Assembly (NCBI GenBank): GCA_019752335.1
Contig: JAIEMJ010000014.1
Location: 1-64,000 of the forward strand
Reading direction: 5' to 3'
Source of the DNA: Bryobacteraceae bacterium
GTDB taxonomy: Bacteria; Acidobacteriota; Terriglobia; Bryobacterales; Bryobacteraceae
Length of the DNA stretch: 64,000 nt
Both the position numbers and the translations under genes were made by a program. Positions 14,744-55,983 of this stretch are shown here, piece by piece; the first letter of the stretch is position 1; each line of letters opens with the position of its first letter. Below the pieces are notes generated by a model that was not told where the DNA came from, did not search any database, and saw only the letters and a list, made by a program, of their open reading frames with translations.

Positions 14744-14744
14744 G
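14692..14744 (+). repeat. Left copy of direct repeat: thiD 3' end
   Basis: The last 52 bases of thiD plus one base recur at 18052-18098 in the same orientation. The right copy lacks 6 bases of a short internal GGGGCA repeat and has two substitutions. The two copies bracket the PadR-ADOP genes and the DUF1326 remnant. Confidence 0.9.
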
Positions 14745-14786: not shown

Positions 14787-15149
14787 ATGGGTGGCATGTC
14801 TACCGTAGACAATCCACCTGAACGATTGGAGTTCCTGCAGGGCACGTTGGAGGTTCTCATTCTCCGCAGCCTGCAAATGGCGCCCAATCATGCCTTCGGA
14901 ATCGCCAAGTTTATCGAGCAGCAATCAGAAGAGGAGTTCACCGTGGACAACGGCACCCTGTATCCCGGATTGCAGCGGCTAGTGCAAAAGGGTTGGATCA
15001 CCGCCCAGTGGAAGACCTCGCCGAATGGCCGCAAAGCGAAGTACTACCGGCTTACTCCCGATGGGAGAAAACAACTGCTAGCGGCGACATCCCGCTGGCA
15101 GAGGTTCGTCGAGGCGATGTCCCGTGTGCTTGCGCCGGAGCCCGAATGA
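14787..15149 (+). CDS. PadR family transcriptional regulator
   Basis: A 120-residue winged-helix repressor; ATG at 14796 (MSTVDNPPERLEF) is an alternative start and fits the family better. PadR features are LQGTLEVLILRSLQ, a central FTVDNGTLYPGLQRLVQKGW recognition helix and wing, and KAKYYRLTPDGRKQL. Its stop overlaps the ADOP start (ATGA). In Acidobacteria PadR genes commonly precede ADOP permeases and are thought to regulate them. No clear Shine-Dalgarno sequence is seen. Confidence 0.93.
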   Translation: MGGMSTVDNPPERLEFLQGTLEVLILRSLQMAPNHAFGIAKFIEQQSEEEFTVDNGTLYPGLQRLVQKGWITAQWKTSPNGRKAKYYRLTPDGRKQLLAATSRWQRFVEAMSRVLAPEPE

Positions 15150-17779
15150 GTATCCGCGAACTATGGGCGAGAGCATGTGCCGTACTTGATCGCCGCCGCA
15201 ATCTCGATGATCTCCAAGAGGAGATTGAGGTCCATCTCGCAATGGCCATCGAAGAAGCCGGGGGTGCGAATGCGCATGCCGAAGAGGCCAGAAGGCGCTT
15301 TGGCAATCGCGCCGCGATCAGTGAATCCGCTTACGATGCTTGGTCTCTCGGAGCGGTCGAATCGTTTGCTAAGGATGTCCGGTACGCCGTCCGTGGAATG
15401 TTGCGCAACCCTGTGCCAACGGGAGTCGCGCTCCTATCCATTGCACTGGGCATTGGCGCAACATCTGTGGTCTTCACCGCCGTCAGGTCGGTTCTTCTTG
15501 AGCCACTGCCATACCAGCATCCTGAAGAGCTTGTACAGTTTCGCACCGAATATCCTCGCTTCCCAGAACAGCCTCGTGGTGATTGGATGTCCTGGGAGGA
15601 CGCCCAAGAGGTTCGCAGAAGAAACCGGACGCTTGAAGGCGTGGCCGTCTATCGCAACGCGTTCGTCGATCTGGCGAGCGGATCGGACCATCCCCCCGAG
15701 GCTCTTTATGGAGCGCGCGTGACGTCGAACCTATTCCCTCTCTTAGGCGTCACCCCGATGCTTGGCCGGGGTATTTTGCCGGAAGAAGACCAGCCGGGCC
15801 ACCCCGATGTGATTATCCTGAGCCATCAAGTATGGGTTCGCAGATTCAACTCGGACCCCAGCATCATCGGACGAGTCTTGACGGTGAACGGTCACGGCAG
15901 CAGGGTCATTGGCGTGATGGCTGCGGAGTTCAACTTCCCGATGCGCAGAACAGCGGTGCGCACTCCGTCACCAACCGTCGATTTCTGGGCTCCTCTCGAA
16001 GTTGCCAGAGCGGGTGGCCATAGCGCCGTGGCGAGGTTGAAACAGGGAGTCACCCTGGCGCAGGCGCGACAAGATCTCGTCTCGATCGGCGATAGCCTCG
16101 CCGTCGAGTTCCCAGCGACCAACAGGGATCGAGTTTTGCAATTGAACTTCGTTAGTGAACGGGTTGCCGGAAACGCCAAATCCAGCCTCTATCTATTGCT
16201 TGCGGCTTCGGTCCTCTTCATGTTGATCGGCTGCTCCAATGTCGCGAACCTCTTGCTAGCGCGAGGGCATGGCCGCCAAAAGGAGATCGCGCTACGCCTC
16301 GCTCTGGGCGCTGGCTCAAGAAGAATACTGAGGCAAAGCTTTACGGAGAGCTGCGTCTTGGCCGTCATGGGAGGGTTAGCGGGATATCTCGTGACTGTCA
16401 TGGCCTGGCAGATTCTCCCCGCACTAGCACCCGCCGGTATCCCCCGCCTTGCTTTTGCCCGCCCGGATACCACCGTATTGGTATTCTCGATCGCATTGGC
16501 CGTTCTCAATGGCATTCTCTTCGGGCTCGTTCCCGCTTTGCGCGCCATACGTAGTGAAAGCGCGAACGCAGGTGGGTTTGGAGCGCGCGGCATCGCGGGC
16601 GGAAATGACGGGACGCGCTCGCTTCTGGTCGCGGCCGAAGTCGCGCTTACGGTGACGCTGGTTGTGCTTGGTGGCCAATTGTTGGGCGCCTTCTCCCGGC
16701 TGGTGGTAACCGATCCGGGTTTCGACTCAGACCACGTCCTCGCCTCCGTAATACTGCCCTCCGCGGAACGTTATCCAGATGCCGGAAAGCGCGGCGACTT
16801 ATACCGGAAGATCCTCCAATCGGTTCGCGAGCTTCCTGGCGTCGAGAGCGCGGGAGCCGTGGATGCCCTGCCGTTTAGCGGTGAGAACAACGGAGCATTG
16901 GTCACCACGACAGACGCCTCCTCCGCGAAAGATGTTACCGCGGAGATCGACACCACGGGGGGCGAATACCTGCAAACCCTTGGTCTTCGATTGCTAGAAG
17001 GCCGCTACTTCCACCCTCATGAGATCGTCTCATCCAACGAGTCCGCCATTGTCAGTACAGTCCTGGCTAGCCGTTTATGGCCTGGATCGAGCGCCATCGG
17101 GCGGCGGATTTGCCTCAATTGCCAGCCTGGACAAACACCAGTGTGGAAGCGAGTCGTGGGTGTAGTGTCCGACGCCAAACACGCAGCGTTGAACGAGCCT
17201 GAGAAAGGCGCGGTCTATCTCGCGGCGGGGGCGATGGAGCGCTCTGCGTTCGTTGTGGTTCGGACGCGGCGATCAGTGGGAGAGGTTGAGCGGGCTATCC
17301 GTCGCGCTGTTTCCGCCATCGACGCGAACCAAGCTGTATTCCTCGTCGCCCCACTTAGAAGCTTCATTGCCGATTCTGTGGCGGATCAACGCTTTGTGCT
17401 GATTCTGATCTTCATCGCTGGCTGCCTGGCATTGGTGCTGTCGGCGGCGGGCATATATGGTGTGGTGTCCTATTCCACATCGCGCCGAACGGCGGAAATC
17501 GGAATTCGAATGGCCATCGGCGCGACTCCGAACGCCGTCCATTGGCTCGTTTTTCGTCAGGGATTTGGTCCTGCGGCAGTAGGTCTGGCGATTGGTATGG
17601 CTCTAACGATTGGGTTTCTGATCCTGCTGCGGGGGGTGCTTCCCGGGCTTGACCAAAGTTACGTCGACTATGCCCTGGCCGCGGTCGGGATGGTGACGAC
17701 TACGACAGCGGCAGCGTGCTGGTTTCCGGCTCGGAAGGCCATCAAGATCGATCCGGCTTTAGCCCTGAGGCATGATTAG
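15146..17779 (+). CDS. ADOP-family ABC transporter permease (MacB-like core plus FtsX)
   Basis: An 877-residue permease. The ATG at 15146, overlapping the PadR stop, gives MSIRELWARACAVLDRRRNL, the usual start of acidobacterial duplicated orphan permeases, though the frame is open upstream. Order: cytoplasmic N-terminal helix region (1-75), first membrane helix near 95-115, MacB-like periplasmic core, FtsX block near 345-470, second periplasmic core, and a final FtsX block (about 745-877) with TAEIGIRMAIGATP. No ATPase gene is adjacent, which is normal for this family. The cargo is unknown. Codon and base composition look less GC-biased than the flanking genes, consistent with a later arrival. 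Confidence 0.92.
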   Translation: MSIRELWARACAVLDRRRNLDDLQEEIEVHLAMAIEEAGGANAHAEEARRRFGNRAAISESAYDAWSLGAVESFAKDVRYAVRGMLRNPVPTGVALLSIALGIGATSVVFTAVRSVLLEPLPYQHPEELVQFRTEYPRFPEQPRGDWMSWEDAQEVRRRNRTLEGVAVYRNAFVDLASGSDHPPEALYGARVTSNLFPLLGVTPMLGRGILPEEDQPGHPDVIILSHQVWVRRFNSDPSIIGRVLTVNGHGSRVIGVMAAEFNFPMRRTAVRTPSPTVDFWAPLEVARAGGHSAVARLKQGVTLAQARQDLVSIGDSLAVEFPATNRDRVLQLNFVSERVAGNAKSSLYLLLAASVLFMLIGCSNVANLLLARGHGRQKEIALRLALGAGSRRILRQSFTESCVLAVMGGLAGYLVTVMAWQILPALAPAGIPRLAFARPDTTVLVFSIALAVLNGILFGLVPALRAIRSESANAGGFGARGIAGGNDGTRSLLVAAEVALTVTLVVLGGQLLGAFSRLVVTDPGFDSDHVLASVILPSAERYPDAGKRGDLYRKILQSVRELPGVESAGAVDALPFSGENNGALVTTTDASSAKDVTAEIDTTGGEYLQTLGLRLLEGRYFHPHEIVSSNESAIVSTVLASRLWPGSSAIGRRICLNCQPGQTPVWKRVVGVVSDAKHAALNEPEKGAVYLAAGAMERSAFVVVRTRRSVGEVERAIRRAVSAIDANQAVFLVAPLRSFIADSVADQRFVLILIFIAGCLALVLSAAGIYGVVSYSTSRRTAEIGIRMAIGATPNAVHWLVFRQGFGPAAVGLAIGMALTIGFLILLRGVLPGLDQSYVDYALAAVGMVTTTTAAACWFPARKAIKIDPALALRHD

Positions 17780-17856
17780 GCCCGTTTATGCGAAGCATCT
17801 GCCAACCGTGTTCCAGCGCATTGGCGCTCCGATGAGTCGCTAAGTGTCTGTAATTC

Positions 17857-18050
17857 GTCGTTCCAATGAAAGCTTCCGGCGAAGGCGGAGCGCTTCAGCG
17901 GCGAGGACCACGTGGCGTCGCGGCCTTGGACCTTGAAGTCGTGGGCGAGGGCATAGTCGGCCATAACGCGCTCGACCTTAGTGAAACTTCTTCGTTGGAG
18001 CACTGCCCTCAAGTTCGCCACGAAGGAGTGCAGACTATTCTTCTCGAATT
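17857..18050 (-). pseudogene. Decayed 3' fragment of a DUF1326-family gene
   Basis: The stretch is about 85-90% identical, with two internal deletions, to the 3' part of the intact gene at 19592-20260 and has the same orientation. The minus-strand translation still reads MADYALAHDFK and ATWSSPLKRSAFAGSFHWND, matching the C-terminus of that protein. The 5' part of the gene is missing. It abuts the second copy of the thiD tail, which marks a duplication junction. Confidence 0.88.
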
Positions 18051-18051
18051 T

Positions 18052-18098
18052 GAATCCCAGGCTGGGGCAGGGTCCGGTGAATCACTTCGCCGTTTAGG
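18052..18098 (+). repeat. Right copy of direct repeat: thiD 3' end
   Basis: This is a near-identical, same-orientation copy of 14692-14744 including the thiD stop region. Its last bases also form the stop codon of the convergent PhoD-like gene. That suggests thiD and the phosphatase were once directly adjacent with overlapping stops. Confidence 0.9.
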
Positions 18099-19591: not shown

Positions 19592-20260
19592 TTAGTCGTT
19601 CAAATGGAAGCTGCCGACAAAGGCGGAGCGCTTCAGCGGCGAGGACCAGGTGGCGTCGAGGCCTTGGCCCTTGAAATCGTGGGCGAGCGCGTAGCCGGCC
19701 ATCGCATGGTCCACTTTGGTGAGCGGCGCGTACCAGACCTCTTCGTTGGAGCAATGATGATCGCCCTCGCCGATGGGGCGCGTTTCGATGCTGGCCAGAT
19801 CGCCGGCTTTCAGGTTCGCCTTCACCGAGTGCAGATTGTTCTTGTCGAATTCGAGGGTCACCGGAGCCACTTCGACCCGGACCACCTTGCTGAAGAGGTC
19901 GCCGCCCATGCGCTTGGCGAAGGCTTGCAAAGCTACGCGCTGCGGGCCAGTGGCCTTCTGGTCCACAATCAGCACGGAGTGTACCGGGTAAGCGGAGACG
20001 ATCACGTCGCCGAGGGTGGAGTTCGCGCGAACGACGCCCACGACGCCCAAGCCCGAGAGGTCGACGCCGTCGAACGCGCCTTTCTCAATGCGCCAGCCCA
20101 TCACGGCCAGGTTACCGAGCATGTTCACTTCGGAATTGGCGTAACAAGGACCCGTGTAGATGTCGGCGTTGCGCGCCTCGACATAGGTTCCTTCAACAGT
20201 GTTATTTGGCGCGGCGATAGCCAGGCCGGAAAAAAGAGCGAAAGCGGCAAAAGTCTTCAT
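19592..20260 (-). CDS. Secreted DUF1326-family protein
   Basis: A 222-residue protein with signal peptide MKTFAAFALFSGLAIAA. The mature part begins NNTVEGTYVEARNADIYTGPC and continues with LAVMGWRIEKGAFDGVDLSG and LGVVGVVRANSTLGDV, matching DUF1326, whose function is unknown. It keeps only two of the usual several cysteines (GPCYAN and HHCSNEE). A terminator follows. A decayed partial copy lies at 17857-18050. Confidence 0.75.
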   Translation of the reverse strand: MKTFAAFALFSGLAIAAPNNTVEGTYVEARNADIYTGPCYANSEVNMLGNLAVMGWRIEKGAFDGVDLSGLGVVGVVRANSTLGDVIVSAYPVHSVLIVDQKATGPQRVALQAFAKRMGGDLFSKVVRVEVAPVTLEFDKNNLHSVKANLKAGDLASIETRPIGEGDHHCSNEEVWYAPLTKVDHAMAGYALAHDFKGQGLDATWSSPLKRSAFVGSFHLND

Positions 20261-23148: not shown

Positions 23149-24266
23149 TCTCCTTCCAACAGGAAACTGACCGCGCCTTATTCGAAAACGCCTTACTCTT
23201 CGCTAAGAAACAAACCGCTGCATTAGTGAAGAAGCATCCCGACTTCTACCCCATGTACACCAAGAAGGGGAAATGGAAACATGACGGCGCCGCCTGGACG
23301 CATTGGTGCGACGGCTTTCTGCCCGGCATGATGTGGATCTTCGAGAAACGCAGCGACGCCAAGGACGCTAAGACATGGCGCGAGCACGCCATTCGTTATT
23401 CGAAGCCGCTGGAGCCGCGCAAGCTGGACCGCGAGGTACATGACCTGGGCTTTATTTTCCTCTCCACTTACTACCGCTGGTATCAGGTGACGAAGGACGA
23501 GAGTCTGCGCAAGGTCCTAATTACTGCCGGGCAGACGATGGGCGCGCGGTATCGCGACAAAGGGCAGTACCTACGCTCCTTCGTGGGCGATGAGAGTCTG
23601 TTTATCGACATTATGATGAACGTGGGTATCGTGTTCTATGCGGCGCGCGAAACGGGCGACAAGAAGCTGCGCGAAATCGCGTTGCGCCACAGCTACACCA
23701 CGCGGCGCCACATGGTGCGGGGCGATGGCTCCACGGCCCAGGAAGCTTTGTTCGATACCAAGACCGGTGAGTTAGTGCGTTATGGAAATCACCAGGGCGA
23801 GCGGAGTGATTCCTGCTGGTCCCGCGGGCTTACCTGGGCAATGTACGGTTTCGCCACGGCCTACGAGTATTCCTCGGATCCCCATTTTCTGGCGACGGCC
23901 GAGGCCTGTACCGACTACTTCCTGTCGCACACGCCGAACGACGGCGTGCCGCCATGGGACTATCTCGCCTCGCCGGAGTCTCGCAAGCAAGTCGACACGT
24001 CGGCGGCGGCGATTGCGGCCGCGGGCATGCTGCGCTTGTCGCGCATGATGCAGGATCCGGTGAAGGGACACTTGTATTGGTCCACCGCCAACCAGATCAT
24101 GCGGACTCTGTGTACGAGTTACCTGGGTGACAAGACCAAAGGCTGGGAAGGCATCCTGAAGGGCGGCGTCTATCACATGGGCAAGAATCTCGGCGTGAAC
24201 GAGAGCGTAATGTGGGGCGAGTATTTCTTTTGCGAAGCCCTGGACCGTTTATTACGGCGTCCTTAA
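23145..24266 (+). CDS. Glycoside hydrolase family 88-like unsaturated glucuronyl hydrolase
   Basis: A 373-residue (alpha/alpha)6-barrel protein. GH88 traits are WTHWCDGFLPGMMW, VHDLGFIFLSTYYRWY with Asp near 100, SLFIDIMMNVGI with Asp near 155, YGNHQGERSDSCWSRGLTWAMYGFA, and PWDYLASP...DTSAAAIAAAGML. The two Asp residues correspond to the catalytic positions in this family, which hydrates unsaturated uronyl residues left by polysaccharide lyases. No signal peptide is seen, so it acts in the cytoplasm. It is coupled by ATGA overlap to the upstream secreted protein. Confidence 0.88.
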   Translation: MISFQQETDRALFENALLFAKKQTAALVKKHPDFYPMYTKKGKWKHDGAAWTHWCDGFLPGMMWIFEKRSDAKDAKTWREHAIRYSKPLEPRKLDREVHDLGFIFLSTYYRWYQVTKDESLRKVLITAGQTMGARYRDKGQYLRSFVGDESLFIDIMMNVGIVFYAARETGDKKLREIALRHSYTTRRHMVRGDGSTAQEALFDTKTGELVRYGNHQGERSDSCWSRGLTWAMYGFATAYEYSSDPHFLATAEACTDYFLSHTPNDGVPPWDYLASPESRKQVDTSAAAIAAAGMLRLSRMMQDPVKGHLYWSTANQIMRTLCTSYLGDKTKGWEGILKGGVYHMGKNLGVNESVMWGEYFFCEALDRLLRRP

Positions 24267-24323
24267 TGCGGCCAGCGCAAGTTGCTTGAATCTCTTGACC
24301 GGTAGACCCGCATCCATTAGGCA

Positions 24324-25100
24324 ATGAAGAAGGCCGGATTGCTGATGCTGGTTTGTGCCGCTTGCGCGGTGGGCGAAGAGGTTTCCGTCAGGACCTTACC
24401 CAAGCGCTTTGCCGCGGACGAATGGAAGATTCTCTCCAGTCCGTTCCGCCCCAGCAGCTATAACGCTCAGCGGGTCACTCGTTACATCGTGCCCTTCGCC
24501 TTAGTAACGGGCGCCCTGATCGCCACGGATCGCCGCTCAGGGGCGGCTTTGCCCAACACTCAGGATCAGCGTGTCTGGAGCGGGCGCGTCTCCCAACTCG
24601 GCGCCTGGTACAGCCTGACCGGGATCTCGGGCGCTACTTATCTGGCCGGAAGATTCACGGGCAACGGCCGCGCGCAGGAGACAGGGTTGCTGGCGCTGGA
24701 GGCTTTGGGCCACGCGCAGGTTTCGGTTTTCGCCATCAAACAACTCACGAATCGCGAGCGTCCGCAGGATGACGCGAAGGGCCGGTTCTGGCAGGGCGGC
24801 ACGTCGTTCCCTTCCGGCCACTCGGCCGGAGCGTTTGCGGTCGCGACGGTGTTTGCGCACGAGTATCAGGGGCACCGGGCCGTGCCGGTGGTCGCCTATT
24901 CTCTAGCGACGGCGGTTTCGTTGTCGCGGGTGGGGGCGCAGAAGCATTGGCCCTCGGACATCTTCGTGGGCGGCACGATCGGCTATCTGATGGGGCGGAC
25001 GACCTTCAAGCGTCATCATCAGGACTCCTTGCGCGGTAGCCGTCTGATGCCCCAGGTGGGCATGGTGCGCGGCGGCGCGGCCTTGCATTGGAAGTTCTAG
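24324..25100 (+). CDS. PAP2 superfamily phosphatase
   Basis: A 258-residue protein with an N-terminal signal (MKKAGLLMLVCAACAVGEE) and several hydrophobic helices. All three PAP2 phosphatase motifs are present: KQLTNRERP, SFPSGHSAG and SRVGAQKHWPSD, with the catalytic His residues. It probably dephosphorylates a lipid phosphate such as undecaprenyl pyrophosphate or phosphatidic acid on the outer side of the membrane. It starts 57 bases after the GH88 stop. Confidence 0.9.
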   Translation: MKKAGLLMLVCAACAVGEEVSVRTLPKRFAADEWKILSSPFRPSSYNAQRVTRYIVPFALVTGALIATDRRSGAALPNTQDQRVWSGRVSQLGAWYSLTGISGATYLAGRFTGNGRAQETGLLALEALGHAQVSVFAIKQLTNRERPQDDAKGRFWQGGTSFPSGHSAGAFAVATVFAHEYQGHRAVPVVAYSLATAVSLSRVGAQKHWPSDIFVGGTIGYLMGRTTFKRHHQDSLRGSRLMPQVGMVRGGAALHWKF

Positions 25101-25195
25101 GTGCATCCACGGCCTAAAGTAGAAACGCCTTCATCCAGCCGCAGAACCAGACTTAGATCCACGCATACCCGCTATGCACCAGCTTCAGTGAAAGG

Positions 25196-25870
25196 TTAAC
25201 GAGCCGCGAAAGCTTGGCTCGACAACGAGAGGCTCGGGGGCTGCGGCATGGCCAATCGGTTCGTCACGCCCGCGCAGCCCGCATCCCACGCCTTGGCCGT
25301 CGTAAGATCCCAACTCGTGCAGTAGGTGGTGGCTACTCCCCGGCCGTCCAGCAACTCCATGGTGTAGCTGATGCGCACCACGCGCAGTTCAACTGTCTCC
25401 CGTGGTCTGTCGCCCGAGGTGCCTCCGACACTGGCCCGGCCGAGCAGCGCCTCAAAACGGATGAGCAATTGCGGAGTGGCTTCCGCACTGGTACCACCCG
25501 CGCGGACCAGCACAATCGCGCCCGCCTTCGGCGCCGACTGGTTATTCAGTTCCCGCAGAAATCCGAGCGAGCAGCCGTCCAGCGAGCGGCCGACCGTGAT
25601 CGGCTGATAGACGGACGGGCCGGCTTCAATTCTGCTGCCTTGTGGTTCGAACGGCCGCTCCGCACCCGCCTCAAAGTCAGCGACGTCGAACCAGGTCTTG
25701 CCCGCGGCAGCGCCGAACCAGGCCTTTCCCGCAAACGAAGGCGGCGCGGGCGCGCCGCACCAAGCGGTAGACCCGGTCGGCATTGGAAAATCATAAGTCA
25801 TCAGCAGACTCTGGCCAAAGGCGCTCGCCGTGAACATCACTCCCCAAAGGGGTAGCCATTTTCTTTGCAT
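25196..25870 (-). CDS. Secreted Hcp-like protein (type VI tube fold)
   Basis: A 224-residue protein; ATG at 25870 is preceded by GAGGAG and gives MQRKWLPLWGVMFTASAFGQ, a signal peptide. The mature part fits the Hcp1 pattern: DVADFEAG, YQPITVGRSLDGCSLGFLRE, IVLVRAGG, IRFEALLGRASVGGTSGDRP then RETVELRVVRISYTM, and a final SWDLTTAKAW. In Hcp the corresponding block is S.GD.P.E...LNF.KI and WDL..NK. A Sec signal is not expected for a T6SS tube, and no T6SS genes are near, so it may be a domesticated surface protein. Assigned by pattern recognition only. Confidence 0.55.
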   Translation of the reverse strand: MQRKWLPLWGVMFTASAFGQSLLMTYDFPMPTGSTAWCGAPAPPSFAGKAWFGAAAGKTWFDVADFEAGAERPFEPQGSRIEAGPSVYQPITVGRSLDGCSLGFLRELNNQSAPKAGAIVLVRAGGTSAEATPQLLIRFEALLGRASVGGTSGDRPRETVELRVVRISYTMELLDGRGVATTYCTSWDLTTAKAWDAGCAGVTNRLAMPQPPSLSLSSQAFAAR

Positions 25871-25984
25871 TCTGTTTCTCCTCTTCATGCGGACTCGCTG
25901 AGACGAAGAATACCAGAAGCGATCCAACCACTCGGGCACTGATTGCCCGCGGTTCAACTGCTTGGCCTGAGGCGCCCGGCTCCG

Positions 25985-26255
25985 GGCCAGTGAGGCGCCA
26001 GGAGACGCCGCTCGGGGTGGACCTCAAGAAGTTCCGGAACTGAAGGCGATCACCTTGAAAGCTGCCAAGGGACTCACCATGGGTGCCAACGCGCCTTGCT
26101 GCCAGTTCACCGCGCACGAAAGACCCGCGGCGCGGCGTCGCTCGCTCGCCGGCATGGCTGTTGGAATCGGCGGCACGGAGGCGCAAATTCGCGTGTCCTT
26201 GGACCGCCACCTCTGTAGTGTGGCGCCGAGCGCGGACTCCGTTTTGTCCATGCCT
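25985..26255 (+). pseudogene. Decayed fragment of a xanthine-dehydrogenase FAD-subunit gene
   Basis: The stretch aligns collinearly with 29113-29375 of the intact FAD-subunit gene, sharing runs such as GGAGACGCCGCTCG, GTGGACCTCAAGAAG, CTGAAGGCGATCACCTT and AGCGCGGACTCCGT. Several small indels destroy the frame. Only the region for about residues 38-125 remains, with no start and no C-terminal half. It lies 79 bases before the frameshifted kinase gene, and the intact parent lies just after that gene. Confidence 0.9.
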
Positions 26256-26333
26256 CGTGGCGGCCAAGGCGCTAGGCTGAGCGTGTACTGCAGACCGCGT
26301 GATGGCCGCCCACAGGTATACTAACAGGACCGC

Positions 26334-28912
26334 ATGGCCCGCGAACCCGGTAGTCAGATCGGCCCTTACACCATCCAATCCCTGCTCGGCGCAGGCGGGA
26401 TGGGGGAGGTCTATCGCGCGCGCGACACGCGGCTCAACCGCGACGTCGCCGTCAAGTTCTTGCATGCCGATGCCGACGCCCGCCGCTTTCAGACCGAAGC
26501 GCGCGCCGTGGCCGCGCTGAACCATCCCAACATCGTCTCCATCTTTGATGTCGCCGAAGAGTATCTGGTCACCGAACTCGTCGACGGCAGTCCGCTGCGC
26601 AAGCTGAAGCCGACGCACCGTGAGGCCATCGACTACGCGGCCCAGATCGCCGACGGACTCGCCGCGGCCCACTCGGCTGGCATTAGCATCGCGACCTGAA
26701 GCCCGATAACGTCATGGTGACGCGCGAGGGCCGCGTCAAGATCTTGGACTTCGGCCTCGCCCGCCAAGCGCAAACTACCGCTGATGATGCCACGCGTACG
26801 CTGGGCGGTATGGTGATGGGCACGGTCGCGTATATGTCGCCGGAGCAGGCGCGCGGCCAGGCCGCCGACGCGCGGAGCGACATCTTCAGCTTCGGCAGCA
26901 CGCTGTACGAAATGCTGGCTGCCAAGCAGCCCTTCACCGGCGACAGCGCCGCCCAAACCATGGCGGCCGTTATCGAGAAGGACCCGCCGCCGCTGCCGGA
27001 CACGGTCTCGCAGGGACTCAAAGGCATCGTCCTGCGCTGCCTCGAAAAGGAGCCCTCCCGGCGCTTCCAATCCGCCTCGGACCTCGCCTACGCCCTTCGC
27101 GCCCTGAGTGGCTCGTCCACCTCGGTGCAGCCGTCCCTCCCGGTGAAGCGAACGTTCCCCTGGCTGACGGCCGCCCTGGCGGTCGCTCTAGCCGGCACGC
27201 TCGCGTTCTTCCTCCTGCGCCCGTCGCCCGTCGCCATCGCCATCTCTGACTTACCCCGCACGCCCATCCCTATCGAAGAGCCTTCGCCGGGCGAGCCCGC
27301 CTTCTCGCCCGACGGCAAGAGCATCCTCTATCCAGCGCAGGTCGGCGAGACGCGGCAGGTCTTTCTGCGCCAACTGGATTCGCCCGATCCGCAGCAGCTC
27401 ACGAAGGGGGCGGTGGATGTGCGTCGGCCGGCCTGGTCCCCGGATGCTTCGAAGTTTTATTTCATTCGCGGCCGCGAGCTCTGTGAGCAGCCGGTGTCGG
27501 GCAGCACACCGCGAGTGGTTCTGCCGGAACTCGCCGACTACGCCATCACTCCCGATGGCCGCGGGGTCGTTTTCGTCGACCGCTACGACGCCGCTGGTTA
27601 TCATCTCCAGATCAGTTCGCCCATGGGCAGCCCCATCCGCCCACTGCGCAATGCTCCCGTTGCGCTCCGGCCGAAAGCGGCTACCAATCAGCCGGTGATG
27701 CGCTTCAGTCCCGATGGCAAGCAACTCATGTTCGCCTACGGCAGCACCCTGCCCATCGCCCAGCTCTTCGTGATCCCCTGGCCAGAAGAAAGCGGCGCGG
27801 CCCGCGAGGTCCCGCTGCGGGAATCCTCCGAAGAGCGTCACCGCCAAACCTTTGCCTGGCTCGGTGACAGCCGGTACGTGGTGGCCGAACACCGCGTGGG
27901 TGGCCGGTATGGGTTGGACTTCATTGACACCCGGCAGGCAACCCGAAAGTCCCATTTTTCGTCTTACGGCCGCCTGGAACCGAGCACCTTCGCGCCGTTC
28001 ATGACGGCCTGCTTTACCAGGAGAACGGGGAGAATTGGGGAGCCTGGTCCTACTCGTTGGCGGACCGGAAACTATCGCGCCTCCATGATACTTCGCTGAA
28101 CGAAACCGAACCGGCCTGGTCCCCGGACGGCAGCACGCTGGCCTTTGTGGCGCACTACGGCGACGAAGATGAACTGTGGCTCAAGAACGTCGCCGCCGGG
28201 TGGAAACGCGTGCTGTTCAAGTCCTCCGCCACCGGCGACAAAACCGCTCGCTTCCGCGCCCCCGCCTTTTCCCCGGACGGCGGGCGCCTCGCGCTCACCG
28301 TCACCCTGGACCAAGCCATCGTCCCCTCCGGTTACGCCATCTATCTGATCCTCACCAAGAGCGGGCAAGCTACGCGATTGCCCGGCGATCTTGGCACCGG
28401 GTTGCGGCCCGTGGATTGGTCACCCGACGGCCGCTCCCTCGCGTTTCGTAACGTGGCGGGTACCCTTCAGGTCCTGGACGTCGAGTCCGGCAAACTGAGC
28501 CAACTCGGAGGGCTGAATGGCAACCGTAGCAACACCACCTGGTCGCGCGACGGCAAGTGGATCGCCCGCGTGGACCGCACCGGCGTCTGGCTCGTCTCGC
28601 CGGACGGCAAAGAGATCCGCCAAGTCTCGAAGCGCTCCTTCACCAACGCGGACGCCCCCGCCCACTGCTTCAGCGCCGACGGCAGCCGCCTCTACCTCCT
28701 GCGCAACGAAGGCGCCTCCGCCAAGCTCGAAGAACTGGTCCTCGCCACCGACGAGCTTCGCACCCTTACCACGCTGCCCGGCTCTCTCCTTCCAAAACTT
28801 CAACTACGGCATGCGCCTGCACCCCGATGGAAAGAGCGTCGTCTTCACCAGCGGCGAAGTCACTACTACCTTCTGGCTCGTCGACGGCGTTACTGCCGCG
28901 CTCAACCGGTAG
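26334..28912 (+). pseudogene. Ser/Thr protein kinase with PD40/WD40-like repeats, three frameshifts
   Basis: An intact version would have about 860 residues. The kinase domain has [38 protein letters not shown] and MSPEQARG; then a membrane helix (FPWLTAALAVALAGTLAFFLL) and an extracytoplasmic beta-propeller with FSPDGKSILY-type repeats. A one-base loss near 26687 shifts the frame exactly before HRDLK, so translation stops at 26699. Further shifts lie near 27975-28005 and near 28785; the true C-terminus in the third frame is GKSVVFTSGEVTTTFWLVDG, ending at 28912. Three breaks argue for a real pseudogene, although assembly error is possible. Confidence 0.88.
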
Positions 28913-29000
28913 ACTTCCGCGAGTACGCACCGCCATCTGAACCTGGATTTCGACGGCCAACGGGTCTTCGGGGAATTACTCCCTGCTACGATGTCAGGTG

Positions 29001-29858
29001 ATGCGATCATTCGACTATGCCGCGCCCGTTTCGTTGGCCGAAGCGCTGGCGCTTCTGGCCGCCCACCCCACCGCCCGCGTCCTCGCTGGCGGCACTGACC
29101 TGCTGGTGCAACTGAAATCCGGGCGCCGGGAGACGCCGCTCGTCGTGGACCTCAAGAAGATCCCCGAACTGAAGGCGATCACCTTCGACGCCGCCGAGGG
29201 GCTCACCATCGGCGCGACGGTGCCTTGCTGTCAGCTCACCGCGCACGCTGACCTGCGGCGCGTCTATCCTTCGCTGGCCGAAGTGGCTGGCTTAATCGGC
29301 GGCACGGCGGTGCAGGGTCGCGCGTCCTTGGGCGGTAACCTCTGCAACGCGGCGCCCAGCGCGGACTCCGTCCCGCTCATGATTGCGCTCTCCGCGCAGG
29401 CGCGCGTGGCGGGTCCGCAAGGCTTGCGCACCGTCGCCGTCGAGGACTTCTGCGTCGCGCCTGGCAAGAGCATTTTGGGCCCGGGCGAGTTCCTCGTGAG
29501 TATCTTCTTCCCCCTGCCCGCGCCTGGCTTTCACGCGCACTATCTGCGCTTCATCCCGCGCAACGAGATGGACATCGCCGTGGTGGGCGTGGGCGTTTCG
29601 ACTACGGTGCAAGACGGCAAGATCGCCGCGGCGCGCATCGCGCTGGCGTCCGTCGCGCCGACGCCTTTGTTTGTGAAGGCCGCCGGCGACTCGCTGGTGG
29701 GCCAGGCACCGACGTCCGAGGCCATTGCCGGAGCCGCGACGCTGGCGCAAGCCGCGGCCAAGCCAATTAGTGACATGCGCGCGCCGGCCGATTACCGCCG
29801 GCATCTGTGCGACGTCCTCACGCGACGCGCGCTCACCGCCACGCTAGGAGCTCAATAA
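29001..29858 (+). CDS. Molybdenum hydroxylase FAD-binding subunit (xanthine/CO dehydrogenase medium-chain type)
   Basis: A 285-residue protein with the FAD-binding PCMH fold: MRSFDYAAPVSLAEAL, VLAGGTDLLVQLKSG, TIGATVPCCQLTAH and GTAVQGRASLGGNLCNAAPSAD, the last being the second FAD loop, then a CO-dehydrogenase flavoprotein C-terminal domain. It passes electrons from the Fe-S clusters to an acceptor through FAD. A GTG at 28998 is also in frame but ATG 29001 is preferred. The 2Fe-2S subunit starts 4 bases after its stop, and a decayed partial copy lies at 25985-26255. Confidence 0.93.
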   Translation: MRSFDYAAPVSLAEALALLAAHPTARVLAGGTDLLVQLKSGRRETPLVVDLKKIPELKAITFDAAEGLTIGATVPCCQLTAHADLRRVYPSLAEVAGLIGGTAVQGRASLGGNLCNAAPSADSVPLMIALSAQARVAGPQGLRTVAVEDFCVAPGKSILGPGEFLVSIFFPLPAPGFHAHYLRFIPRNEMDIAVVGVGVSTTVQDGKIAAARIALASVAPTPLFVKAAGDSLVGQAPTSEAIAGAATLAQAAAKPISDMRAPADYRRHLCDVLTRRALTATLGAQ

Positions 29859-29861
29859 ACC

Positions 29862-30332
29862 ATGAAAGTCCACGTCCAATTCACCCTCAACGGCGAACCC
29901 GCCGAATTCCTCGCCGAGCCGCGCCAGACGCTGCTCGAATGCTTGCGCGACAACCTCAACCTGACGGGCACCAAGGAAGGCTGCGGCGATGGCAATTGCG
30001 GCTCCTGTAGTGTCCTGCTGGATGGCCAACTGGTGACGTCCTGCCTGGTGCTCGGCGTCGAAACGCAGGGCCAGCGCGTCGATACGGTGGAAGGTATCGC
30101 CAAGGGTTCAACGCTACATCCGATCCAGAAGGCCTTCATTGACCATGCGGCGCTGCAGTGCGGCATCTGCACGCCTGGCTTTCTGATGGCCACCAAGGCC
30201 CTGCTCGATCACGAGCCCAACCCCACCGAGCCGCAGATTCGTTTGTGGCTCGCCAACAACCTTTGCCGCTGCACGGGGTACGACAAGATTGTGCGCGCGG
30301 TGCAAGCCGCCGCTGCTGAAATGAGGGCTTAA
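29862..30332 (+). CDS. Molybdenum hydroxylase 2Fe-2S subunit (small chain)
   Basis: A 156-residue protein with two 2Fe-2S clusters. The plant-ferredoxin-type cluster is CGDGNCGSCSVLLDG, and the second, in a four-helix bundle, is LQCGICTPGF plus NNLCRCTGYDKI. The N-terminus VHVQFTLNGEP is typical. It shuttles electrons between the molybdenum site and FAD in the trimeric hydroxylase. It lies between the FAD and molybdopterin subunit genes with gaps of 3 and 1 bases. Confidence 0.96.
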   Translation: MKVHVQFTLNGEPAEFLAEPRQTLLECLRDNLNLTGTKEGCGDGNCGSCSVLLDGQLVTSCLVLGVETQGQRVDTVEGIAKGSTLHPIQKAFIDHAALQCGICTPGFLMATKALLDHEPNPTEPQIRLWLANNLCRCTGYDKIVRAVQAAAAEMRA

Positions 30333-30333
30333 C

Positions 30334-32586
30334 ATGAGCACCACGACTTATCATCTGATCGGCACCCGTCCGCCGCGCCACGATGGCGCCGATAAAGTAA
30401 CCGGCCGCGCGCTTTACGGGGCTGACCTGAAGTTGGCCGGCACCCTGCACGGGGCGATTCTACGCAGTCCGCACGCGCATGCGCGCATTGTCTCGATCGA
30501 TACGAAGGCCGCCAGCCAGCATCCGGCATGCCGCGCCGTGGTGACGGCGGAAGACTTCCCGGAGACGCCGGACCGCATTGTGGATCTGGGCGAAGGCGAT
30601 ACGCCGCTCAGTTACATTCGCGGCAATATGTTGGCCCGTCGCAAGACGCTCTATCAGGGCCATGCCGTGGCGGCCGTGGCGGCGACGAGTCCGCAGGCGG
30701 CGGCCGAGATCGCGGCTTTGATTCAGGTGGTGTATGAGCCGCTGCCCTGCGTGCTGACGGCGCCCGCGGCCATGGCAAAGGGCGCGCCGCTGCTGCATGG
30801 CGATCTGCGCTGCACGGAGTTCGGCCAGCCCACGACGGAGGCGAGCAACGTCGCGGATCACTTCCGGCAGGTGATGGGCGATAGCGAGAAGGGCTTCGCC
30901 GAGGCCGACGTGATCGTGGAGCGCGAGTTCACCACGTCGACCGTGCATCAGGGCTACATTGAGCCGCACACGGCGACCGCGCTATGGAACAACGACGGCC
31001 GGCTCTTGATTTGGTGCTCCACCCAAGGCAGCTTCGTGGTGCGCGATACCGTGGCGTGCATGCTGGATCTGCCGGTGTCGCGCGTGCGGGTGACGCCGAT
31101 GGAGATTGGCGGCGGCTTTGGCGGCAAGGTGCCGGTGTATGTGGAGCCGGTGGCGGCGTTGCTCTCGAAGAAGTCCGGCCAGCCGGTGAAGATTACGATG
31201 ACGCGGCGGGAGGTGCTGGAGGGCTCCGGGCCGACGCCGGGGTCATTCATCCGGGTGAAGATCGGCGCGAAGCAGGACGGGACGCTGGTGGCAGCGCAGG
31301 CTTATCTGGCCTACGAAGCGGGCGCCTATCCGGGCGCGATGGTGGCCCCGGCGGCCACCTGCGTCTTCGCCGCTTACGACATCGCCAACCAGACGATCGA
31401 CGGCTACGACGTGGTGGTGAACAAGCCATCGACGGCGCCGTATCGCGCGCCCGGCGCGACGAACGCCGCCTTCGCGACGGAGACCGTGCTGGACGAGATC
31501 GCGGAGAAGCTGAAGCTGGATCCGCTCGCGTTGCGCCTCAAAAACGCGTCGAAGGAAGGCACGCGCCGCGCGGACGGCGCGAAGTTCCGCCGGATCGGTT
31601 GCGTCGAAGTGCTGGAGACGATGAAAGCGCATCCGCACTATACGGCGCCGCTGGGTGAGCCCTCACATGCCGAGGCCAAGCGCGGCCGTGGCGTGGCCGT
31701 TGGCTTCTGGATGAACGCGGGCCTACCGTCGAGTTGCACGCTGAACGTTCACGCCGACGGCAGCGTCGGCTTGATTGAGGGTTCCACGGACATCGGCGGT
31801 TCGCGGACGTCGATTGCGATGATGGCGGCCGAGGTGCTGGGCTTGCAGGCCGACGACATGCGGCCGTCGGTGGTGGATACGGACACCATCGGCTATACGG
31901 GTGTAACGGGCGGCTCGCGCACCACGTTTGCCACGGGTTGGGCCGCCTATGAGGCGGCGCAGGACGTGGTGAAGCAGATGAAGGAGCGCGCGGCGAAGCT
32001 GTGGAAGGTGGACGAGGTCCACTTCGCCGATGGCGTCTTCAGCGCGGGCGAGCACCGATTGAGCTTCAAAGAACTGGCCGCGCGCGTGGGCGAAGTGGGA
32101 GCTCCAGTGGTGGGCCGCGCGTCGATCAACGCGAAGGGCCCGGGCGGCAGCTTTGCGGGCGCGATTGTCGATGTCGAGGTGGATGTCGAGACGGGCAAGA
32201 CCAGCATCCTGCGCTTCACCTGCGTGCAGGACGCCGGCAAGGCGATTCATCCCAGCTACGTGGAAGGGCAGATGCAGGGTGGCAGTGTGCAAGGCATCGG
32301 CTGGGCGCTCAACGAAGAGTACTTCATGAGCCCCGAAGGCCGCATGATGAATGCGAGCTTCCTCGATTACCGCATGCCGACGGCGCTCGATGTACCGATG
32401 ATCGATACGGCGATTGTTGAGGTGCCGAATCCTGTGCATCCTTACGGCGTGCGCGGCGTGGGCGAAGCGAATATCGTCTCGCCGCCGGCGGCGATCGCGA
32501 ACGCGATCCACGCGGCCACGGGCTGCCGCATGCGTCACCTGCCGATGAATCCGCCGAGCGTGCTGGCGGCGATCCAGCAGTGCTAG
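30334..32586 (+). CDS. Molybdenum hydroxylase molybdopterin-binding subunit (xanthine dehydrogenase family)
   Basis: A 750-residue large subunit. It has IGTRPPRHDGADKVTGRA, the cofactor loop EIGGGFGGKVPVYVEP, YRAPGATNAAFATE, DIGGSRT and VTGGSRTT, and near the C-terminus GVRGVGEANIVSPPAA with the catalytic Glu. The CO-dehydrogenase selenosulfur-type loop is absent, so a purine, aldehyde or aromatic substrate is likelier than CO. No Tat signal is seen, so it is cytoplasmic. The order FAD - FeS - Mo is the usual one. Confidence 0.94.
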   Translation: MSTTTYHLIGTRPPRHDGADKVTGRALYGADLKLAGTLHGAILRSPHAHARIVSIDTKAASQHPACRAVVTAEDFPETPDRIVDLGEGDTPLSYIRGNMLARRKTLYQGHAVAAVAATSPQAAAEIAALIQVVYEPLPCVLTAPAAMAKGAPLLHGDLRCTEFGQPTTEASNVADHFRQVMGDSEKGFAEADVIVEREFTTSTVHQGYIEPHTATALWNNDGRLLIWCSTQGSFVVRDTVACMLDLPVSRVRVTPMEIGGGFGGKVPVYVEPVAALLSKKSGQPVKITMTRREVLEGSGPTPGSFIRVKIGAKQDGTLVAAQAYLAYEAGAYPGAMVAPAATCVFAAYDIANQTIDGYDVVVNKPSTAPYRAPGATNAAFATETVLDEIAEKLKLDPLALRLKNASKEGTRRADGAKFRRIGCVEVLETMKAHPHYTAPLGEPSHAEAKRGRGVAVGFWMNAGLPSSCTLNVHADGSVGLIEGSTDIGGSRTSIAMMAAEVLGLQADDMRPSVVDTDTIGYTGVTGGSRTTFATGWAAYEAAQDVVKQMKERAAKLWKVDEVHFADGVFSAGEHRLSFKELAARVGEVGAPVVGRASINAKGPGGSFAGAIVDVEVDVETGKTSILRFTCVQDAGKAIHPSYVEGQMQGGSVQGIGWALNEEYFMSPEGRMMNASFLDYRMPTALDVPMIDTAIVEVPNPVHPYGVRGVGEANIVSPPAAIANAIHAATGCRMRHLPMNPPSVLAAIQQC

Positions 32587-32797: not shown

Positions 32798-33079
32798 TTG
32801 CCGAGCGTCTACATTCCCGCGTTGTTGCGCAGCGCGACGGGCGGCCAGGAACTGGTGAAGGTCCCCGGCGCGACGGTGCGCGAGGTGGTGGCGTCGCTGG
32901 AGCGGGAGTTCCCTGCCCTGGTGGGGCGTCTGGTGAAGGACGGCCGGCTATTGCCGAACCTGGCGATCGGGATCGATGGCGAGGTGAGCTTTCTGGGGTT
33001 GGCGGAAGACGTCGGTCCCGAGCAAGAGGTGCAGTTTCTGACGGCGATCAAGGGCGGTCGTTCGGAGGCCCTCAGCTAG
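32798..33079 (+). CDS. MoaD/ThiS-family ubiquitin-like protein
   Basis: A 93-residue beta-grasp protein starting at TTG (MPSVYIPALLRSATGG). VKVPGATVREVVASLEREFP, LVKDGRLLPNLAIGIDGE and EDVGPEQEVQFLTAIKGG match MoaD/ThiS sulfur carriers. The family's functional Gly-Gly is followed here by RSEALS, so either it must be trimmed or the protein is not a standard sulfur carrier. It follows the molybdenum hydroxylase genes, hinting at molybdopterin supply. A decayed copy of its 3' part lies at 39995-40097. Confidence 0.82.
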   Translation: MPSVYIPALLRSATGGQELVKVPGATVREVVASLEREFPALVGRLVKDGRLLPNLAIGIDGEVSFLGLAEDVGPEQEVQFLTAIKGGRSEALS

Positions 33080-36000
33080 TCCGGCAGGTCCGGCGCAATC
33101 TTTCCGAGGATCGACAGCGCCGGCTCGCGAATCTCCACAGCCACTCGCTTGAGATAGACCCGGCTACCAGCCTCGACGGCCTTCAAGGCCTCGTAAATCG
33201 GCCGCCAGGCATCGATCCACTCTTTCTTCACGAGCACGTCCAGGCACTCTCGCACACGCCCCGCCTTCACCGCGGCGGTGAAGAACGCTTCGAGCGCCGC
33301 GCGTCCTTTGCCGAGAAGCTCGATGGGGTCACCCAGCAGCGCATCTTCAAAGGCTACTGACGCCCGCGGGAAATCTCCCAGCCGGGCCAAGGCCACCATC
33401 CGGTAGAGGCGCGTGAACGGGTTGGAGTGGTCGTGCTGCTCAACCAGATCGCAGATTTTCAGGAGGATCTTTCCGAACGGCGCATAGTTCTGGTTGAGCA
33501 CAAGCAATTCAGACCAGAATTCGGATTTCGCGGCAGCGTCCAGAAACGTCAATGCTCCGACGTCGCTTTCTGGGGCGCGTCGTACAGCAGTGAAGATGGC
33601 CGCCAGGACAGGATTCTCGAGATCGAGTTGCACGGTTCGCTGGAGCAGTGCCTCCGCCTCCTCGGGCCTACCCAGTTCGCAGAAGAGGAGCACCGCGAGA
33701 CATTGCCGGGCTCCCTCGTTGTTTGGTTCCAGTTGGACCACTTGGCGAAAGGCTTGTGCCGCATCCTCAGGTTTGCCCGCCTGGCTAGCGAGGAAAATCC
33801 CCAGAGTGTTCCAGGAACTTGACGACGTCGGATCAGCTTCGAGTGCCTTTCGATACGCATCCTCGGCCTCCCCGCTTCGGCGGATCCGTGTCAAGAGGTA
33901 GCCCAAACCTTGCCAGGGCCAAGGTGAATTTGCATCAAGCTCGATGGACGTTCGATAGGCCGTCTCCGCTTCTGCACTCCGGTCTGGCGATTTCGACAAG
34001 AGATTGCCAAGACCGTTCCAAGACAGCGCCAGCTTCGGATCCAACTCGATGGCCTTGCGATAGGCCGTTTCCGCTTCTGCACTCCGGTCTGGCGACTTCG
34101 ACAGCAGACTGCCAAGACCGTACCAGGGCACCGCTAGCTTAGGCTCCAACTCGATGGCCTTTCGATAGGCCGTCTCCGCTTCTGCACTCCTTTCTAACGA
34201 TTTCGATAACAGATTGCCAAGACCGTTCCAAGGCACCGCTAGCTTAGGCTCCAACTCGATGGCCTTTCGATAGGCCGCCTCCGCTTCTGCGCTCCGGTCT
34301 GGCGATTTCGACAATAGATTGCCAAGACCGTTCCAAGACAACGCCAGCTTGGGATCCAACTCGATGGCCTTGCGATAGGCTCTTTCCGCTTCTCCACTCC
34401 GGTCTGGAAATTTCATTACAAGAGCAGCAAGATTATGCCAGGAGCGCGCTGGCTCGGGGTTCAACACGATCGCTCTTCGATAGGCCTCCTCCGCTTCTGC
34501 ACTCCGGTCTAGCGATTTCGACAAGAGATTGCCGAGACCATCCCAAGGCAATGCGAGGTTGGGATCCAGCTCGCTTGCCTTTCTATAGGCCCGCTCCGCT
34601 TCTGCACTTCGCTCCGGCGACTTCATCAGAAGAGCACCAAGATTATGCCAGGACGACGCGAACTTGGGGTTCAACTCGATCGACTTTTGATAGGCTGTCT
34701 CCGCTTCCGCGCTCCTTTCGGGCAACTTCGCCAAGTGAACGCCAAGGTTGTACCAAGCAAGAGCCGACTTGGGATTCACTTGGATGGCCTTTCGATACGC
34801 CGCCTCTGCTTCTGCACCCCGTTCCGGGATCTCGGCAAGTTGATTGGCCAGTTCCCCCCAGCGAACTGAGTCCGTGGGATCGATCTCAAGGCTGCTTCGC
34901 AGTTCCGCCTCGGTCTCGATCGCACCTCCGCGCGACAACTCTCCGTTGGCCTCAGACTCCGAAGAGAGCTGATCTAGCGATGGCTCACCGGGCATGAGCT
35001 CTAAAAGAGGCCTCCACTCCGACTCGCTTCGCCCGAAGTTCTCTCGCAAGTAGCCCTCAAACCGATGGCGGCTCCTTCCCGAGGCAGCAGCGTAGGCCAT
35101 CGCATTATCCAACTGACATTCTGGCCCGCCGTCGCGAACGCGATACAGTTCCTTCCAGGCCATCGCTTCCAATTCACCCGGCTCGAAGAAAACGCGCAGG
35201 AACTCAACAAACCAGCGCAGCCGCGCGCGGACTCGCCGGCTGGCTCGCATCAGATACCAAATGTTGAAGAAGCGCTCCGCCACCTGGTAAAGCGCCTTCT
35301 TGCTATCGCCGGAATCGGCCTTCTCGAGAATCCCCTGGCGTACCAGCCGGGTCAGTTGCGTTGAAACCGCACTGGTCTCGAGATTCGTATCCTCCGCCAC
35401 TTCGCTGGCCGTCACTGGATCCCAGTGCAAGGCCACGGCGTCCAGCACTTGCTGGGCCTGCGCCGGCAGTTCATCCACGCGCCCCTTGTAGTTCGGCGTA
35501 CACTGATCCAGTAGCTGTTCCAGGTACTCGCGGGCCCCGCCGGTTAGCCCGTCGAGCACCAGATGGAAGAGCAGCACGGTGGTCCGCGGATTGCCGCCCG
35601 TTAAATGCACCAGCGTTCGCAAACGTCCGGGGTCCGCGGCGAGCCAATCCTCGATGCGCCGCTTCACGACTCCCTTTTGCCCCTCCGGTTCCTCCACGGA
35701 TTCACTCAACCGCAGCATCAGATTCCGGACTTCCTCTAGCGTGAGGGGCGTTAGCTTAAAGATCTGGAAGAATTCAAAGAAGGCGCGGTCCGGGCCGTAA
35801 ATTCCGTCGCTTGCCTGAGTCGACGCACCGAAGAACGTCAGATCCGGGCGGGCGGCAAGTAACTCCCGCAAGCGCCATTGCTCTTTGTCTGCGATCGTCT
35901 CAAACAGGCGCTCCGCATTGTCCACCAGAAACAACAAACTCCGCCCGGTGAGTTGCGTCATCTCGGCCAGAAACTGGGGAACACGTTGTTCGATCTCCTC

Positions 36001-36408
36001 GCGGTCTCGCTTGCTGATTTCCTGGGCAAAACTCTCCACGCGGGCCAGGATCTTTTCATTCCCCAACCGTTCCTGAGTGTCGGCCAGCGCGTCGACGGTA
36101 TTGAGATAGAAACGGTCGAGCCGATTGACGTTGTATTGCTCTTCGGGAAAGACCAGCGGCAGGTATCTACCGTTGAGCGCGGCATCCTCCTCGACGCCGT
36201 AGCGGACGCGTTGCAGCAGGGTCGTCTTGCCCATGCCGCGCGTCCCAATGATCAGCACGTGGGAGGGACGTTCCTCGCGCAGCAGTTCCAGCAGGCGGTG
36301 ATAGACGCCCTCCCGGGCGTGAAACTGGGCGATCGCTTCGCCTTTGCTGAGCGATTGGGGGTTGTAGACGGGCACGCCCCCATAGGGGAACTTTCTCGGC
36401 TCGCTCAT
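33076..36408 (-). CDS. P-loop ATPase with winged-helix-like region and TPR array, STAND-like
   Basis: A 1110-residue protein. Residues 45-330 form an AAA/STAND-like ATPase with Walker A GTRGMGKTTLL and Walker B-like SLLFLVDNAERL. Residues 330-400 look like a winged helix (LDAVALHWDPVTASEVAEDT, VRQGILEKADSGDSKKALY). A linker follows, then about ten TPRs of 35 residues (consensus RSAEAETAYRKAIELDPKLA) over about 540-900, and a helical C-terminal domain of about 200 residues. The layout of sensor TPRs on an NTPase resembles STAND regulators. It overlaps the upstream ATPase gene by 4 bases. Function unknown; a stress- or invasion-sensing role is conjecture. Confidence 0.88.
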   Translation of the reverse strand: MSEPRKFPYGGVPVYNPQSLSKGEAIAQFHAREGVYHRLLELLREERPSHVLIIGTRGMGKTTLLQRVRYGVEEDAALNGRYLPLVFPEEQYNVNRLDRFYLNTVDALADTQERLGNEKILARVESFAQEISKRDREEIEQRVPQFLAEMTQLTGRSLLFLVDNAERLFETIADKEQWRLRELLAARPDLTFFGASTQASDGIYGPDRAFFEFFQIFKLTPLTLEEVRNLMLRLSESVEEPEGQKGVVKRRIEDWLAADPGRLRTLVHLTGGNPRTTVLLFHLVLDGLTGGAREYLEQLLDQCTPNYKGRVDELPAQAQQVLDAVALHWDPVTASEVAEDTNLETSAVSTQLTRLVRQGILEKADSGDSKKALYQVAERFFNIWYLMRASRRVRARLRWFVEFLRVFFEPGELEAMAWKELYRVRDGGPECQLDNAMAYAAASGRSRHRFEGYLRENFGRSESEWRPLLELMPGEPSLDQLSSESEANGELSRGGAIETEAELRSSLEIDPTDSVRWGELANQLAEIPERGAEAEAAYRKAIQVNPKSALAWYNLGVHLAKLPERSAEAETAYQKSIELNPKFASSWHNLGALLMKSPERSAEAERAYRKASELDPNLALPWDGLGNLLSKSLDRSAEAEEAYRRAIVLNPEPARSWHNLAALVMKFPDRSGEAERAYRKAIELDPKLALSWNGLGNLLSKSPDRSAEAEAAYRKAIELEPKLAVPWNGLGNLLSKSLERSAEAETAYRKAIELEPKLAVPWYGLGSLLSKSPDRSAEAETAYRKAIELDPKLALSWNGLGNLLSKSPDRSAEAETAYRTSIELDANSPWPWQGLGYLLTRIRRSGEAEDAYRKALEADPTSSSSWNTLGIFLASQAGKPEDAAQAFRQVVQLEPNNEGARQCLAVLLFCELGRPEEAEALLQRTVQLDLENPVLAAIFTAVRRAPESDVGALTFLDAAAKSEFWSELLVLNQNYAPFGKILLKICDLVEQHDHSNPFTRLYRMVALARLGDFPRASVAFEDALLGDPIELLGKGRAALEAFFTAAVKAGRVRECLDVLVKKEWIDAWRPIYEALKAVEAGSRVYLKRVAVEIREPALSILGKIAPDLPD
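33850..34850 (-). repeat. Ten tandem 105-bp coding repeats (TPR units)
   Basis: The unit start recurs at 33866, 33971, 34076, 34181, 34286, 34391, 34496, 34601, 34706 and 34811, an exact 105-base spacing with no indels. Adjacent units are highly similar at DNA level. Each encodes one 35-residue TPR. Such identity suggests recent unit amplification and makes copy number likely to vary between strains. Confidence 0.92.
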
Positions 36409-39994: not shown

Positions 39995-40097
39995 GCCGGA
40001 CCTGGCAATCGGTATCAAGGGCGGAGTCCGCAGGGCCTAGCGAAGGCTGTAGCGCGGAGTCAGAGGTTCAGTTTCTGACGGCAATCCAGGGCTGGTC
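39995..40097 (+). pseudogene. Decayed 3' fragment of the MoaD-like gene
   Basis: The stretch aligns in the same orientation with about 32955-33060 of the MoaD/ThiS-like gene. The best part (40061-40097) shares CAGTTTCTGACGGC and AGGGC.GGTCG with 33023-33060; upstream, CCTGGC.ATCGG.ATC is also conserved. Indels and stops remove the frame. It marks the far end of the ATPase-amidase block. Confidence 0.82.
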
Positions 40098-40386
40098 GGC
40101 GTTGGCTTTCACCGAGTGCTCCGGCCAGCTCAGCCGAGCGCACTGCAAGTTAGGTCCCAAACCATCATCACCTATTGATGTTATGGCGGATACGCTCGAT
40201 GAGGCCCTCGGGCCCCCATCGGTACACTTCCGCCTCGCTGGCCGCTCGACTGTTTCGATTTGCCACACCGTCTCGGTAGGCTATTCGAACTACGGTAGTG
40301 TTTAGTTTGACGTTACTGAAATTGTAGGGTTTCTGTGCCAGACTTTCTAGACTGGACTTGCTTACATCGGCATCATCACGGCGGCC
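40098..40386. other. Non-coding, AT-richer stretch
   Basis: No gene with a plausible start, family match or ribosome site is visible here. It links the MoaD fragment to the unknown-gene island. Confidence 0.5.
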
Positions 40387-53130: not shown

Positions 53131-53157
53131 TCCAGCCGGGAACGATAGTGCCCGGGT
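53131..53157 (+). repeat. Left copy of 27-bp direct repeat
   Basis: TCCAGCCGGGAACGATAGTG followed by N-CCGGGT occurs here and at 55957-55983 with one mismatch. The copies bracket the Uma2 remnant, msrB and the M28 peptidase gene. Confidence 0.85.
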
Positions 53158-55974: not shown

Positions 55975-55983
55975 TGACCGGGT
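55957..55983 (+). repeat. Right copy of 27-bp direct repeat
   Basis: Matches 53131-53157 at 26 of 27 positions in the same orientation. The stop codon of the M28 peptidase (55972-55974) lies inside it. Confidence 0.85.

Follow-up and report, generated by a model that had tools for sequence, protein, structure and literature searches.

How did a protein kinase gene in an acidobacterial genome come to lie between a decayed and an intact copy of the gene next to it? The window in which this locus is found is a stretch of 64,000 nucleotides of a Bryobacteraceae bacterium, on contig 16 in our numbering of a 7.2-Mb genome in 55 contigs (G000). The genome was compared with a single congener (G001) and with another 35 members of the family, named in public records as Bryobacteraceae and other Acidobacteria.

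The fragment and its parent gene

The locus comprises three elements on the forward strand: a decayed internal fragment of a FAD-subunit gene corresponding to codons 42-125 (25994-26242), a Ser/Thr protein kinase gene with a C-terminal PD40 beta-propeller and three frameshifts (26334-28912), and the intact gene for the FAD-binding subunit of a xanthine dehydrogenase-family molybdo-hydroxylase (28998-29858; Pfam FAD_binding_5 and CO_deh_flav_C), referred to here as the parent. The conserved cluster continues on the same strand with the 2Fe-2S subunit (29862-30332), the molybdopterin (Mo) subunit (30334-32586) and a ThiS/MoaD-like gene (32798-33079), with which it ends. The left neighbour of the fragment, taken from the list of open reading frames, is a hypothetical gene on the reverse strand (25196-25870) with a signal-peptide-like start, for which a Pfam search gave no match.

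The parent encodes 286 amino acids and is whole from start codon to stop, the ATG at 29001 being a likelier start than 28998. It is 82% identical in amino acids to its counterpart in the congener. The XdhB-like FAD subunits of NCBIfam NF043083 have the same domains and the same subunit order (FAD, 2Fe-2S, Mo), but the parent scores 216 on that family, below the cut-off of 310, and the substrate is therefore left unassigned.

The pairwise alignment that an earlier note on this DNA had proposed joins the fragment to 29122-29371 with 79.3% identity over 251 columns, including three one-base gaps (E 6e-54 in a search within the window). The alignment score is 282, the best of 300 shuffles reaching 42. 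Both sequences lie on the same strand at an offset of 3128-3129 (3.13 kb), in agreement with the earlier description of FAD-subunit sequence directly before the kinase and an intact parent after it, about 3.1 kb away in the same orientation. The left limit of the fragment, 25994, is about 9 bases inside the 25985 given before. At the protein level the similarity to the parent spans 26025-26276 (54% over residues 53-136, E 5e-18); beyond 26242 it is weak and confined to this level, reaching about 26276. The fragment is an internal piece, without codons 1-41 and with nothing past codon ~125-136, and the conserved stretch GGNLCNAAP of the parent is DRHLCSVAP in it.

The FAD-subunit family is multi-copy in these genomes, and on this ground the fragment might be the relic of a separate paralogue or of another hydroxylase cluster. 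Contigs 9 and 14 carry the true paralogues of the genome, at 30-40% identity; at the protein level these share 22-23% identity with the fragment as against 55% for the neighbouring gene. A translated search of the 7.2 Mb identified the fragment as the sole other close FAD-subunit match, and a nucleotide search found no other match to it in the rest of the genome. When a DNA tree was built from the 250 columns together with eleven relatives, fragment and adjacent gene came out as sisters (support 100/99), whereas a tree grouping it with the congener gene is 19 log units worse (p-AU 0.019). The whole-genome search and the tree rule out a separate paralogue or another FAD family, a reading that is now hardly credible; between the two outcomes distinguished by the earlier note, a local duplicate and a separate paralogue, the data select the first. 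Since the fragment is sister to the parent to the exclusion of the congener, the duplication took place after the two species of the genus, this one and the single congener compared, had separated.

Decay of the fragment and of the kinase

Changes were polarised with the congener as reference. The branch of the fragment carries 34 resolved changes of its own, distributed as 6/18/10 over codon positions 1/2/3, and the branch of the parent carries eight (1/0/7); the differences between parent and congener are 18/7/44. These distributions contrast significantly (chi-square p 1e-5; Fisher p 0.004). Changes in the fragment ignore codon position and those in the parent fall in the third, which indicates that the fragment drifted without coding constraint and the parent under selection. 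The distribution of changes and the three one-base indels bear out the earlier view of the upstream copy as decayed: it is a non-functional duplicate (pseudogene) of the adjacent FAD gene.

The same distribution bears on a foreign origin of the kinase. Homology-facilitated illegitimate recombination can leave a duplicated anchor, and the kinase could have arrived on foreign DNA anchored by a donor FAD piece, which would be the present fragment. The lack of a kinase orthologue in the relatives searched is in line with such an arrival. The fragment, however, is nearer to the resident gene than the gene of the sole congener is, and its divergence lies mainly at codon positions 1 and 2, which means that it arose by decay and not through functional genes diverging from each other. 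An origin on foreign DNA is accordingly quite improbable.

The kinase gene is indeed frameshifted, as had been reported. Alignment to at least 15 full-length intact relatives of 864-1028 amino acids places it in four successive frames (~26334-26684, 26687-27900, 28009-28776 and 28817-28911), with three shifts: near ~26685, within 27900-28009 and within 28776-28817. The Pfam Pkinase and PD40 matches fall on both kinase frame pieces, the full-length kind being ~860-1030 amino acids long. Within the four segments no nonsense codon was identified in 808 codons counted, whereas drift over the same span of time as in the fragment (0.137-0.15 changes per site) would be expected to leave 8-9. Zero stops were never seen in 500 simulations at fragment-like drift, and were seen in 2% at 0.05 changes per site. 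Indels are about ten times sparser in the kinase than in the fragment. The absence of stops and the sparse indels imply that the kinase still worked for a long time once the FAD copy was dead, or that its indels are errors; the decay of the kinase is much younger than that of the fragment, unless these indels are assembly errors.

A working kinase gene disturbed by sequencing or assembly errors is possible although doubtful. Its unbroken codons, set against the number of stops that fragment-long decay would bring, agree with it, as do the catalytic motifs Gx[15 protein letters not shown] and DFG, all of which are readable. On the other side, errors would have to account for three indels in a gene of 2.6 kb, whereas each of the genes for the FAD, 2Fe-2S and Mo subunits and for GH88, along with its congener alignment, is a single open frame.

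No close relative of the kinase was identified in the 61 genomes searched, its own included, the best match being 37% identical over the propeller region. The best match in its own genome is a propeller 31% identical, and on this ground a recent duplicate of the kinase within the genome was rejected. Promoter capture, with the fragment driving the kinase, was also set aside as speculation: no sigma-70-like site beyond chance was found upstream of the kinase, and the fragment is without the gene start.

Origin of the arrangement

The order FAD-FeS-Mo-ThiS is kept across Bryobacterales in most of the loci examined. What lies upstream of the FAD gene was surveyed in ~34 Bryobacterales loci, including that of the congener (one genome is counted in two collections). 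The congener has the FAD-FeS-Mo-ThiS cluster with no kinase in front, and among the ~33 loci of other relatives a kinase precedes the FAD gene in one other genome. In this genome (G032; L044 / L111), from another genus of the family, a different PD40 kinase immediately precedes the hydroxylase FAD gene. It is 37% identical to the window kinase over 359 amino acids, from the last part of the kinase domain into the beginning of the propeller, and is absent among the best matches listed; it is no evident orthologue, and its position was taken as coincidence.

The congener is colinear with the window over 28982-32573, and then weakly in ThiS. Upstream of its cluster are folC, plsC and a DinB-like gene. 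Positions 24260-28981 of the window, with a PAP2 phosphatase, the hypothetical gene, the fragment and the kinase, have no nucleotide match in the congener barring weak generic kinase-domain matches; 19592-24259 matches two other congener contigs, and gene order between the two species is broken every few kb. In the window genome folC and plsC are on contig 20 (L173, G000 C20:118000-137000), where the cluster is absent and no traces of hydroxylase genes were found in the 19 kb examined. Because folC and plsC adjoin the cluster in G001 and stand without it here, the cluster has shifted its position in either the one lineage or the other. Relocation from a G001-type site was considered as the cause of the arrangement and discarded, as it does not explain the fragment.

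A tandem duplication followed by partial loss of the first copy best explains the layout, with a probability that we put at about 0.6. A short duplication would have begun shortly before the kinase and ended within the FAD gene, at about codon 125-136, so that a truncated FAD copy came to stand head-to-tail before a second copy of the kinase. Later deletion would have removed the first copy of the kinase together with codons 1-41 of the duplicated FAD piece, with fragment, kinase and intact FAD gene as the outcome. The fragment would then have drifted unconstrained, and the kinase would have stayed under selection and broken recently. The direct orientation at short distance that a remnant of tandem duplication would have is present, and the state of the copies, the right one whole and the left one internal, agrees with sequence having been lost from one member of a tandem duplicate. 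To the left of the fragment no remnant of a second kinase, or of the sequence upstream of the kinase or FAD gene, rose above shuffles, and to its right 26243-26333 has no match nearby. As the junction of the FAD case, between ~26243 and 26333, matches nothing nearby, the steps of duplication and deletion are inferred. Inferred, too, is a kinase already in place ahead of the FAD gene at the time of the duplication; a kinase that arrived later would mean another sequence of events.

Such a later arrival would have the FAD gene or the cluster duplicated first, the kinase landing between the copies and the upstream copy eroding. At this site the kinase is specific to the lineage, its best match in the 61 genomes is distant, and in the congener and most relatives the cluster occurs without a kinase; that the kinase outlived the fragment is compatible with its arrival before or after the duplication. 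This order of events, however, needs a separate insertion exactly between two copies, and beside the fragment there is no trace of the 2Fe-2S subunit, the Mo subunit or the 3' half of the FAD gene. We consider it unlikely.

The earlier description, in which a block stands between direct copies of its neighbour, holds for the layout but not for a transposon-like insertion that duplicated its target. With target duplication inside the FAD gene the left copy would keep the gene start and the right one would lose it. The opposite is seen: the right copy has the whole gene, start and stop codons included, and the left one lacks its first codons. This candidate was rejected.

Neighbouring scars and known systems

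Two more scars were identified in the window. The first is located 8 kb upstream of the fragment, where 17854-18051 repeats in decayed form the 3' part (19592 to ~19860) of gene 19592-20260, 88% identical over 111 bases. It is joined directly at 18051/18052, with GAAT microhomology, to 18052-18098, which copies the end of thiD (14692-14744; gene 13967-14743). The join is a distal-to-proximal junction, the hallmark of tandem duplication, and through this scar the duplication route gains direct support. A PadR regulator and an ADOP-family permease (14787-17779) lie between thiD and the scar. The second is located 7 kb downstream, where 39995-40137 is a decayed direct copy of 32953-33096, the ThiS-like 3' end and a few bases past the stop (score 95, against 54 in shuffles). 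Between the ThiS-like gene and its copy are three lineage-specific genes: NTPase-TPR, a second ATPase-like and an amidase-like gene. The FAD case had been counted before as a second independent instance of a block between copies of its neighbour; the scar at 17854-18098 stands as the other one, and 39995-40137 adds a further one. Other repeats in the window are a nine-copy tandem array of 105 bases (33787-34926) in the TPR region of gene 33076-36408, and a 27-base direct repeat (53131-53157 and 55957-55983; 26/27 identical) that flanks two genes and is just above shuffled scores.

In total the window contains four local direct pairs within ~26 kb (14.7-40.1 kb), those of the FAD gene, the thiD end, gene 19592-20260 and the ThiS-like gene, and zero inverted ones. 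The scan of ~11 other stretches of the same genome, each of at most 64 kb, gave 0-2 direct pairs per stretch, several of them ordinary paralogues, and chunks of two relatives mostly gave 0-3, with one repetitive exception of nine. The Poisson p of ~0.003 for two cases was computed after seeing the data. A modest local clustering of scars is likely. The great majority of synteny breaks are without such a scar, and a general scar-leaving mechanism is not indicated. That one process set each lineage-specific block (the PadR-ADOP permease pair, the kinase and the NTPase-TPR group), leaving on its far side a direct copy of 50-250 bases of the flanking conserved gene, is very improbable. Four decayed copies of neighbours in 26 kb would matter solely if scars marked the borders of gene blocks genome-wide, and the 786 kb sampled outside the window gave no sign of this. 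The fragment is a dated and polarised case of a local duplicate decaying beside the surviving gene, of little significance alone, and it represents ordinary genome decay of a known kind in one acidobacterial lineage.

The introduction of PMC11111574, citing Anderson and Roth (1978), reviews tandem duplication by illegitimate or microhomology recombination that is followed by the loss of one copy. The locus resembles such systems: direct local copies stand a few kb apart, a partial copy precedes another gene, and transposase or terminal repeats are unneeded. It differs from those systems in that the first kinase copy is gone, the junction is unreadable and the age is beyond that of experimental systems. 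The large acidobacterial genome of Candidatus Solibacter usitatus Ellin6076 contains many Ser/Thr kinase paralogues, most of them less than 50% identical, and was shaped by horizontal gain and small duplications (PMC3174227). That study comprises whole paralogues, whereas here one of the copies is a fragment of 250 bases.
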